Shown: one piece after another, positions 45,966-47,837 of the stretch
How positions within the stretch are numbered: the first letter of the stretch is position 1
How the letters are laid out: each line of letters opens with the position of its first letter
Source of the DNA: Pseudomonas furukawaii
GTDB taxonomy: Bacteria > Pseudomonadota > Gammaproteobacteria > Pseudomonadales > Pseudomonadaceae
Direction of reading: 5' to 3'
DNA length: 64,000 nt
NCBI RefSeq assembly: GCF_002355475.1
Contig: NZ_AP014862.1
Span: 5,022,001-5,086,000, forward strand
The notes under the pieces: model-generated
Told to the model about the DNA's origin: nothing
What the model saw: the letters and a program-made list of their open reading frames with translations, nothing else
Database searches by the model: none
Position numbers and translations under genes: made by a program

Positions 45966-45979
45966 ATCGGCGAAGGTCC

Positions 45980-46131
45980 GTAGAAGCCGGCTTGCCGGCG
46001 AACGTGCGGGCGATCTTCGCGAGCAAGCTCGCTCCTACAGGGCCGGCAGGTTCGTAGGAGCCGGCTTGCCGGCGAATATTGCGTACCGGTTCGCGAGCGA
46101 GCTCGCTCCTACAAGGGGGGCTGGCACATCC
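45980..46131. repeat. REP-pair unit (BIME), copy 1
   Basis: A 152-bp unit with two convergent REP pairs (GTAGAAGCCGGCTTGCCGGC ... TTCGCGAGCAAGCTCGCTCC; then GTAGGAGCCGGCTTGCCGGC ... TTCGCGAGCGAGCTCGCTCC). It lies directly downstream of bifA and can fold into strong hairpins that may protect the bifA mRNA 3' end. Confidence 0.9.
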
Positions 46132-46283
46132 GTAGAAGCCGGCTTGCCGGCGAACGTGCGGGCGATCTTCGCGAGCAAGCTCGCTCCTACAGGGGGCGAA
46201 GGTCCGTAGGAGCCGGCTTGCCGGCGAATATTGCGTACCGGTTCGCGAGCGAGCTCGCTCCTACAAGAGGGGCTGGCACATCC
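46132..46283. repeat. REP-pair unit (BIME), copy 2
   Basis: Direct tandem duplicate of the preceding 152-bp unit. It differs at only a few positions (the spacer near 46192-46205 and one base near 46266), so the duplication is recent or kept alike. Confidence 0.9.
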
Positions 46284-46292
46284 GTAGACATC

Positions 46293-46305
46293 ATGGATTG
46301 ACCTG
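46293..46305. repeat. Left subterminal inverted repeat of the IS
   Basis: ATGGATTGACCTG, a perfect 13-bp inverted match to 47766-47778. Confidence 0.88.
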
Positions 46306-46382
46306 CCCCACCTCGAAAGCGCGGGTTATGTTTTCGGGGTGGAAACACCTCCAACACAGAGCCGCATCGAGGGGGACAGGTC

Positions 46383-47513
46383 ATGAACGAGTTTAACCAG
46401 GTCTATGTAGGTTTGGACGTTCACCAGGCGACGATTGCTGTCGCGGTGGCACGGCCGGGGCGCGGTGAGCCGGACTATCACGGCACCATCGAGAACCGCG
46501 ACAGCGCGCTGCGCAAACTGCTCAAGCAGCTGAGCCGGCAGGGCGAGGCGTTGAGCTTCTGCTACGAGGCCGGCCCCTGCGGCTACGGCCTTTACCGTGA
46601 GCTGACAGCGCTGGGCCATGGTTGCGTGGTGGTGGCGCCCTCGCTGATTCCGCGCAAGGCGGGCGAGCGGTTGAAAACCGACCGTCGGGACGCCCTGATG
46701 TTGGCGCGCCTGCATCGGGCGGGCGAGCTGACGGCGGTGTGGGTGCCGGATCAGGAGCAGGAAGCGATCCGCGACTTGACGCGCGCCCGGGAGGACATGA
46801 AGTCCCTGGAACTGAAGTGCCGGCAACGCCTGGGCGCGTTCTTGCTGCGTCATGGGCACGTCTATGCCGGTAAAAGTCGCTGGACCCAGGCCCATTTCCA
46901 CTGGTTGGCGAGCGTGAAACTTGACTCGCCGGTGCAGCAGATCGTCCTGCAGGAGTACCTCGACACCGTTAAATCGATGCAACGGCGGGTGGCCGATCTG
47001 GAAGCGCAAATGCACGAAGCGCTGGCCGGCTGGTCGCTGGGTACGGTGGCGCAAGCCCTGATGGCGTTGCGCGGGGTGAGCCTGATCACGGCGATGACGG
47101 TGTTGGCGGAGTTGGGCGACCTCAGTCGCTTCGACTCGCCGCGCGAGCTGATGGCCTACCTGGGACTGGTTCCCAGCGAGCACTCCAGCGGTGGCTCACG
47201 CCGCCAGGGCCGCATTACCCGCACGGGCAATGGCCATGTCCGGCGGGTGCTGGTGGAAGCGGGGTGGAACTACCGTTTCCCGGCACGCAAGACACGCGTC
47301 ATCGAGGCGCGCGCGGCGAAAACCTCGGCGGTGGTTCAGGCCATCGCCTGGCACGCGCAGAAGCGCTTGTGCGGTCGTTATCGAGCGCTGCTGGCGGCGG
47401 GCAAGCTCAAGCAGCAGGTCACCACCGCCATCGCCCGGGAGCTGGCGGGATTCATCTGGGCCATCGCCTGCGCGGTGGCGGGCAAGGCACACGGCAGTAA
47501 GGCCGTGGCATGA
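46383..47513 (+). CDS. IS110-family transposase (IS1111 type)
   Basis: The 376-residue recombinase has an N-terminal RuvC-like DEDD domain (VYVGLDVHQATIAVAVA, CYEAGPCGYGL, KTDRRDALMLARL) and a C-terminal Tnp20-type domain with the putative nucleophile Ser in GLVPSEHSSGG (about residues 264-268). It appears intact, and GGGGGACAGG lies before the ATG. In this family the recombinase uses a non-coding RNA from the element's own end to choose donor and target DNA. It probably inserts into REP sequences, as IS110 elements of P. putida do. Confidence 0.93.
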   Translation: MNEFNQVYVGLDVHQATIAVAVARPGRGEPDYHGTIENRDSALRKLLKQLSRQGEALSFCYEAGPCGYGLYRELTALGHGCVVVAPSLIPRKAGERLKTDRRDALMLARLHRAGELTAVWVPDQEQEAIRDLTRAREDMKSLELKCRQRLGAFLLRHGHVYAGKSRWTQAHFHWLASVKLDSPVQQIVLQEYLDTVKSMQRRVADLEAQMHEALAGWSLGTVAQALMALRGVSLITAMTVLAELGDLSRFDSPRELMAYLGLVPSEHSSGGSRRQGRITRTGNGHVRRVLVEAGWNYRFPARKTRVIEARAAKTSAVVQAIAWHAQKRLCGRYRALLAAGKLKQQVTTAIARELAGFIWAIACAVAGKAHGSKAVA

Positions 47514-47521
47514 ACCCGCAG

Positions 47522-47726
47522 CAGTGGCTTCGGTTCAGGGGGTGGAGGGCCGGTGAGGAGAACCCCTGGCGCTCCTATGTGGCGTCCTCTGCGAGGAGGA
47601 CAGACCCACGACCGTAGAGAAGGGCAGCTCCGCGACGAAGTGAAGTCAGGTCGGTAACCAACCCACGTATATCAGAGTGATCCACCGTCGCCTAATCGCC
47701 CTCCACCCCCTGAACCGAAGCCACTG
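47522..47726 (+). ncRNA. Putative bridge/seeker RNA region of the IS
   Basis: A perfect 29-bp inverted repeat (47522-47550 and 47698-47726) encloses a 147-nt interior. Inside, GCTCCTA (47571-47577) is complementary to TAGGAGC across the right side of the target. A hairpin (GTCCTC/GAGGAC, 47584-47601, extended by GTGG/CCAC) follows, then CCGTAGA (47612-47618), identical to the left target side. ATATCAG (47669-47675) copies the IS right end. This target-loop layout fits the guide RNAs of IS110/IS1111 elements. Exact RNA ends are unknown. Confidence 0.65.
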
Positions 47727-47765
47727 GCGGAGAAGAACAAAACGAAAGAATAGACCCAGAGTTGA

Positions 47766-47778
47766 CAGGTCAATCCAT
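47766..47778. repeat. Right subterminal inverted repeat of the IS
   Basis: CAGGTCAATCCAT, the inverted partner of 46293-46305, five bases from the right junction. Confidence 0.88.
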
Positions 47779-47783
47779 ATCAG

Positions 47784-47837
47784 GAGCCGGCTTGCCGGCG
47801 AATGGCGTGACGGCTTCGCGAGCAAGCTCGCTCCTAC
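47784..47837. repeat. Right part of the REP pair split by the IS
   Basis: GAGCCGGCTTGCCGGC followed by the opposite REP arm (TTCGCGAGCAAGCTCGCTCCTAC). The left four to seven bases of this REP remain at 46281-46287. Its last bases contain the stop codon of the GIDE-domain gene. Confidence 0.85.

Follow-up and report, generated by a model that had tools for sequence, protein, structure and literature searches.

Positions 47522 to 47726 of the window (the whole 64,000-nt stretch of DNA analysed here) very probably form the gene of a guide RNA, a seekRNA or bridge RNA, that directs the insertion of the IS1111-type element in which it lies. Sequence comparison among related elements supports the structure of this RNA unit, its right-target guide and, more weakly, its left-target guide, and a segment that copies the right end of the element probably serves as a right-donor guide.

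The insertion sequence that carries this unit is complete (Table 1) and consists, in order, of AGACATC as a 7-bp left extension, a 13-bp subterminal inverted repeat (sTIR), the transposase gene tnp, the non-coding RNA region, a second 13-bp sTIR and ATC as a 3-bp right extension. The sTIRs form a perfect inverted repeat whose distance to the ends of the element is 7 bp on the left and 3 bp on the right, and 13/13 bp together with both extensions are found in 8/8 copies of the element in this genome, the right ends of which are 99-100% identical. Repeats of 11-13 bp with 7/3 extensions are characteristic of IS1111 elements, for which the asymmetric rule has been published (PMC11187229 section 4; this paper, PMC11208160 and PMC8450116 are cited throughout from excerpts). 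The transposase matches PF01548 (DEDD_Tnp_IS110), PF02371 (Transposase_20) and NF033542 ("IS110 family RNA-guided transposase"), and its relatives of solved structure, judged by sequence, include the ISCro4 and IS621 transposases. Its likely catalytic residues, assigned from conserved columns, are D12, E62, D100 and D103; in an alignment of 29 transposases that includes the one from the window, 29/29 have D12, E62 and D103 and 28/29 have D100. A GLVPSEHSSG motif at residue 261 corresponds to a G--P----SG pattern present in 25/29, in line with the DEDD (RuvC) domain and the C-terminal domain with a GL-P----S(t)G motif that mark IS1111 transposases. The length of 376 aa exceeds the 330-350 aa given for the group, a range that is an observed spread, since IS1111 elements are classed by sTIR and relatedness (PMC11187229). 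As usual for IS1111, a long non-coding region follows tnp; the preliminary description was right to call this end non-coding, but its length is 252 nt from the stop codon to the right sTIR, or 268 nt to the end of the element, and not 270 nt. IS110 elements of the IS621 type, in contrast, lack a long sTIR (their STIR is short) and encode the bridge RNA in the left end (PMC11208160), whereas here the sTIR has 13 bp and the RNA unit lies in the right end. Taken with the conserved fold described below, the sTIR ends and transposase families thus agree with the earlier assignment to an IS1111-type element that has its RNA unit after the transposase.

Table 1. Features of the insertion sequence, its target and its putative guide RNA (positions in the window)
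Feature	Positions	Strand	Basis
Complete IS1111-type insertion sequence, 1,496 bp	46286..47781	+	sTIR pair; identical ends in 8/8 genomic copies
Left target half CCGT, outer edge of interrupted REP	46282..46285	+	8-copy comparison
CATCAT, -10 half of junction pair, 17-bp spacing in circle	46289..46294	+	
Left subterminal inverted repeat ATGGATTGACCTG	46293..46305	+	inverted-repeat search and 8-copy comparison
DEDD transposase, 376 aa	46383..47513	+	Pfam PF01548, PF02371; NCBIfam NF033542
Putative bridge RNA / long seekRNA unit, 205 nt	47522..47726	+	fold, alignment, covariation; extent set by outer stem
5' arm of 29-bp outer stem	47522..47550	+	inverted repeat; helices 1-2 of consensus
Putative target-binding stem-loop, helices 3-6	47551..47637	+	covariation structure
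Right-target guide (by comparison) GCTCCTA, complement of top strand T|AGGAGC	47571..47577	+	guide-target tracking
Hairpin between right- and left-target guides, GTGG/CCAC at base, inner stem 47584-47601	47579..47609	+	
Left-target guide (by comparison, weaker) CCGTAGA, left flank CCGT plus AGA	47612..47618	+	guide-target tracking
Weak candidate for left-donor guide GAAGTCAG, complementary to C|AGACATC at 6 of 8 positions	47642..47649	+	
Hairpin in donor multiloop, helix 7	47650..47666	+	covariation structure
Probable right-donor guide ATATCAGA, right end and core of circular junction	47669..47676	+	end tracking
3' arm of 29-bp outer stem	47698..47726	+	inverted repeat; helices 1-2 of consensus
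TTGACA, -35 half of promoter-like junction pair	47762..47767	+	
Right subterminal inverted repeat CAGGTCAATCCAT	47766..47778	+	inverted-repeat search and 8-copy comparison
Right target half and remainder of interrupted REP, AGGAGCCGGCTTGCCGGCGAAT	47782..47803	+	

All eight copies are inserted at one point of a REP-like edge, NYGT|AGGAG(C/T), and in a single orientation. Their left flanks end in (C/T)GT, their right flanks begin with AGGAG(C/T) and the rejoined site reads (C/T)GTAGGAG(C/T), so that these copies show the specific target, the one orientation and the absence of target duplication typical of IS1111; for the element in the window the target sequence is CCGTAGGAGC. The palindromes behind the edge vary among the copies (CCGGCTTGCCGG, CGGGCTCGCCCG, CGAGCTCGCTCG and TGAGCTTGCTCG) while the edge itself is constant, which we interpret as guides that read a short edge common to REPs with at least four different palindromes and not the palindrome itself. 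Genome-wide, 401 REP-like sites (up to 2 mismatches) compare with 0 for a reversed-pattern control; this enrichment is a property of the REP pattern only, as the 9-mer CGTAGGAGC has 194 genomic sites and thus fewer than its reversed control (334). The element's own insertions carry CGT in 7/8 cases, compared with 156 CGT and 145 TGT among background REP-like sites (one-sided binomial 0.044). Directly to the left of the element, positions 45977-46280 hold two 152-nt direct repeats that are 96% identical and contain REP-like sequences.

The perfect 29-bp inverted repeat, the segments GCTCCTA, CCGTAGA and ATATCAG (47669-47675) and the hairpin GTCCTC-TGCGAG-GAGGAC that had been picked out in the preliminary description are all present at their places. 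The RNA fold of 47514-47765 has z = -6.9 relative to 200 dinucleotide shuffles, 0/200 of which fold as low. Across 20 aligned units, a 39-pair structure is paired in 93.6% of cells, compared with 74.0% for shuffles and 34.8-50.7% for slid versions of the structure, and 28/39 pairs show two-sided changes with a covariation score of 0.487 (0.161 in shuffles). The size of the outer stem had seemed surprising, yet its 19 consensus pairs inside the 29-bp stem behave like a real RNA helix in these 20 units, with 18/19 changing on both sides and 93.2% of cells paired. The presence of the stem in all 20 units is partly a matter of construction because the outer inverted repeat itself served to set the limits of each unit (18 by search, L042 and L066 by eye), but the covariation is not. 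In Pseudomonas lopnurensis, the transposase of which is 89% identical over the matched part, both differences in the 3' arm give G-U pairs, and this points to RNA and not to DNA. Inside the outer stem, the stem-loop of helices 3-6 would by inference be the counterpart of the short seekRNA of 70-100 nt (size from PMC11187229) and contains a small helix (47579-47582 / 47606-47609) with one target guide on each side, while the right-donor guide position lies in the multiloop, 3' of helix 7. Searches of the whole window gave no Rfam match at the gathering score, and no orphan RNA copies were found in this genome, where a 22-nt pattern (up to 3 mismatches) matches only the 8 IS copies.

For comparison, relatives were drawn from genome contigs (29 loci), from whole genomes of the family (matches in 2/398, E 1e-100), class (10/369, E 1e-100) and phylum (3/398, E 1e-110), each time with the own genome counted, and from plasmids (11 of 195 records used). 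Element ends were located by means of the sTIRs together with the 7/3 rule, blind to the RNA, and the 46 loci tried comprise a first set of 20 with the window element included, 10 hold-outs and 16 others; the hold-outs were found with a profile of the first RNA alignment and their ends were mapped separately. Loci L036, L043, L050, L051, L059, L071, L072, L074, L079 and L085 were without mappable ends, L035 was without a right flank and therefore aligned only, L037 (P. lopnurensis) was left out as it shares the target of the window element, and L067, L075, L076 (masked) and L077 were left out as copies of the element represented by L078. Partial loci (L038-L040, L049, L052-L058, L060 and L061) stayed outside end mapping, and for L091 the second-ranked pair of ends was taken by analogy with its relatives. 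The resulting 30 elements still include L081-L083, one element in triplicate, and L087 and L088, which are near-identical; a 27-set omits the near-duplicates L082, L083 and L088, and a 33-set adds L067, L075 and L077. Guide windows were first placed by eye and then confirmed by alignment columns, with 20/20 agreement when the RNA units were aligned by MAFFT with no target information supplied. The right-guide test compared each RNA with its own and others' right flanks at +3 to +8, omitting the near-invariant first two bases, and the left-guide test used left flank positions -2 to -5 at the CCGTAGA columns.

Aligning related elements with their insertion sites, the check proposed in the preliminary description, revealed clear tracking of targets by the right guide: among the 30 elements it matches its own flank at 4.10 of 6 positions and those of others at 1.59 (0/20000 permutations, a type of test that corrects only partly for relatedness, here and below, with 20,000 permutations each). 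The same holds for the 10 hold-outs alone (3.90 vs 1.68, 0/20000), for swaps within one right-end class (0/20000) and after removal of near-duplicates (0/20000 on 27; 23/20000 on the 7 remaining hold-outs). Over +1 to +8, at least 6 of 8 positions match in 24/30 elements, and the exceptions are L069 with 2, L046 with 3 and L084, L044, L045 and L093 with 5 each. In L069, the left guide fits (4 of 5) and the right guide does not (2 of 8), possibly due to an off-target insertion or a composite or recently changed guide. The left guide follows its flank less strongly (own 1.90 of 4 vs 1.17 on 30, 0/20000; 13/20000 with within-class swaps; 5/20000 on 27) and is not significant in the hold-outs alone (1414/20000 on 10; 6031/20000 on 7). 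Genome G754 has four copies, of which the lone one with a guide in ...GTT has a left flank in ...GTT, and the other three have guides in ...GCT and flanks that end in CT. With the 33-set, the right guide, the left guide and the donor copy each give 0/20000; taken alone, the right guide of L077 matches 7 of 8 positions, that of L075 5 (8 with G-U pairs) and that of L067 1 of its first right flank, which is a second RNA copy. P. lopnurensis has the same right guide and a right flank of AGGAGC at all 4 right ends read; its left guide CTGTAGA goes with TGT in 3/4 left flanks seen, a count that is uninformative because the background there is 75 TGT vs 31 CGT.

Lone 7-nt matches in 252 nt are weak evidence, as had been cautioned, but comparison among related elements makes chance matches very unlikely. 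Two target guides flanking a hairpin, as first proposed, are therefore supported by tracking in 30 elements, and the elements examined include no relative that has altered guide segments yet occupies the same REP position. One detail needs correction: CCGTAG of the left guide matches CCGT|AGGAGC, but the last A of CCGTAGA matches the left end of the element, AGACATC, and not the target. The guide order, which the preliminary description wanted compared with known IS1111 RNAs, is the published one, with segments for both strands and the top-strand complement 5' of the bottom-strand match (PMC11187229 section 9), and the matches overlap at the insertion point, likewise as reported. Guides that change with the target among relatives, as both do in the 30 elements, are a further trait of IS1111 seekRNAs.

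The copy of the right end in the RNA, first described as ATATCAG, extends to 8 nt as ATATCAGA, the sequence formed where the right and left ends join in the circle, ATATC|AGA; a role as right-donor guide is probable, with limited comparative support. The five right-end bases are copied exactly in 21/30 elements and with one mismatch in 9/30. The observed match of right end and RNA is not reached by permutation (0/20000 on 30 and on 27), but the test gives no signal in the hold-outs alone (12854/20000 on 10; 11397/20000 on 7). Written as right end/RNA, the classes are ATATC/ATATC (13), ATATC/ATCTC (1), ATACC/ATACC (1), ATGAG/ATGAG (6), ATGAG/ATCAG (5), ATCAG/ATCAG (1) and ATAAG/ATGAG (3, all copies of a single element). 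On a transposase tree with 29 rows, from which L041 and L048 were omitted, right-end classes follow clades, and independent donor changes are therefore few; the ATCAG match of L046 has little weight, since this RNA sequence also occurs in five ATGAG elements. Outside the 30, ISEc45 (L100, by eye) has the right end ATAAG|AG and ATAAGAG in its RNA. A naturally matched donor variant, right end ATACC with ATACCAG in the RNA, occurs in L041 and in L103, which lies on the Halomonas plasmid pHaKG2_1 (RNA unit at 1912-2111, 114.7 bits; right end ATACC|AG; read by eye); no transposase is annotated in the 4.2-kb stretch of L103, and its guide CAACTA fits the right flank AGTTGT. The second donor guide was already considered doubtful, and indeed the left-donor candidate follows the left ends only weakly (535 to 817 of 20000 permutations reach the observed match). 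Donor-binding nucleotides in the multiloop have been reported for many IS1111 RNAs (PMC11208160 section 12), and a figure legend of the same paper gives predicted target and donor guides for six elements, ISPa11 among them; donor guides of IS1111 RNAs have thus been predicted in print, and the subgroup studied here adds limited comparative support. In L067 (genome G754), two right ends stand in tandem from 0-based offset 2978 of the locus, and the second RNA copy starts with AGAATCC inside the unit, lacks the 5' arm of the outer stem and is joined to the first right end, ATC|AG. Tandem and orphan copies of ssr9, as reported for ISPpu9, look similar, and the arrangement may have arisen by recombination at an AG inside the RNA gene.

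How much of the RNA takes part in guiding can be read in two ways. The long RNA might be a true but asymmetric bridge RNA in this IS1111 subgroup, in which one donor guide reads the right end and core, the left end is mostly left to the protein and sTIR, and the outer stem would hold target and donor domains on one molecule; we rate this possibility somewhat short of an even chance. It is also conceivable, though rather doubtful, that the RNA is mainly a seekRNA of which only the target stem-loop (~47551-47637) matters, with ends recognized by the transposase via the sTIRs and with the ATATCAGA copy and outer stem serving processing or stability. The 82-nt short seekRNA of ISEc11, which sufficed for transposition (PMC11187229 sections 10, 14), speaks for such a target-only RNA, as do the weak left-donor guide and a donor-guide variation that falls mostly between clades and is imperfect within them. 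However, the right-end copy keeps one structural position in exact and one-off elements alike, has the form ATACC in L041 and ATGAG in 6 others, each time with the same right end, and agrees with the right end in ISEc45 as well, and a part needed for processing alone need not copy the end of the element.

Explanations without a guide fare much worse. ISPpu9 also inserts into REPs with AG on both sides and encodes an sRNA of ~180 nt 3' of tnp (PMC8450116), and the unit could by this precedent resemble Ssr9/Asr9 and regulate the transposase gene as a trans-acting sRNA, with no targeting role; this is very unlikely, as the guide segments follow each element's own insertion site and regulation does not predict that, although regulation and guiding are not mutually exclusive. 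More improbable still is that the 29-bp inverted repeat acts at the DNA level (as a cruciform or nested MITE) or as a bidirectional terminator, with guide matches that arose by chance. A perfect repeat of this length does look unusual and individual 7-nt matches are weak, but the arms stay paired with different sequences across the aligned units and keep G-U pairs, a covariation that disfavors a DNA-only palindrome or nested element, and no T-run follows the right arm. Chance guide matches were rejected by the permutation tests and by the agreement with alignment columns.

For a guide RNA gene, a source of transcription is suggested by a promoter-like pair that forms when the ends meet in the excised circle. 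Such junction pairs score 9-11 of 12 in 18/20 elements, a score matched by at most 3/500 base shuffles, whereas those of L089 and L090 score 8, which is reached by 69 and 41 of 500 shuffles; a junction promoter has been published for related IS1111 elements (PMC11187229). We infer transcription, processing, binding and catalysis as follows. The circle would transcribe tnp and the RNA region, and the transposase would bind the RNA, which is predicted to fold into a long outer stem that closes off two domains, a donor multiloop and a target loop. Within the latter, GCUCCUA would pair with T|AGGAGC on the top strand, and CCGUAG(A) would bind the left flank on its bottom strand, steering the DEDD transposase to the AG dinucleotide on the outer REP edge in one orientation. 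The donor junction ATATC|AG is probably recognized through AUAUCAGA, a match to the right end and core of the element itself, and exchange at the shared AG would then insert the element in one orientation.

As described in the literature, the IS1111 seekRNAs of ISEc11, ISKpn4, ISPst6 and ISPa11 (Siddiquee et al. 2024, PMC11187229) resemble this system in the non-coding region 3' of tnp, the 7/3-bp sTIR extensions, the guide order, the overlapping matches at the insertion point and the junction promoter, and ISPa11 is one example that also targets REPs. Compared by description, those elements differ in the transposase length discussed above and in that a right end|core copy lies in the RNA here; the excerpts cited from that paper mention no donor guide. 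The IS621 bridge RNA (Durrant et al. 2024, PMC11208160) similarly combines target and donor guides in one RNA and targets REPs, but an IS110-type bridge RNA has both donor guides and here only the right one is clear. The guide order of IS110-type elements is the reverse of IS1111, as shown for ISEc21 (PMC11187229 abstract, section 14), and by analogy that of IS621 would be the reverse of this element's. ISPpu9 of Pseudomonas putida KT2440 (PMC8450116) is alike in the features named above, but its Ssr9/Asr9 are reported as a regulator, and left- and right-end boxes are repeated before ssr9. ISEc45, ISSso6 and ISSfr2 (annotation names) have transposases ~48-57% identical to this one and other targets; ISSfr2 is represented among the 30 by L090. 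In ISEc45, CACGTAGA matches the left flank plus AGA (by eye), as in the window element, but against the profile built from the units studied here its RNA scores only 10.1 bits, and its right-target guide fits only in part. Our literature search returned the 2024 seekRNA and bridge RNA papers and, among the papers listed, none that could be tied to this element or its close relatives.

Guides that read the edge of REPs would give a plain reason why an IS can choose these repeats as targets. The programmable RNA-guided recombinases found in this family attract interest as a means to insert large DNA, and the subgroup offers a natural series of 30 guide-target pairs plus a few right-end variants. 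The 2024 seekRNA paper (PMC11187229) describes the role of the long RNA and the mode of end binding as not established, and the subgroup makes this open point of IS1111 biology testable. An asymmetric bridge RNA, if true, would conflict with the short target-only seekRNA as the whole IS1111 guide.
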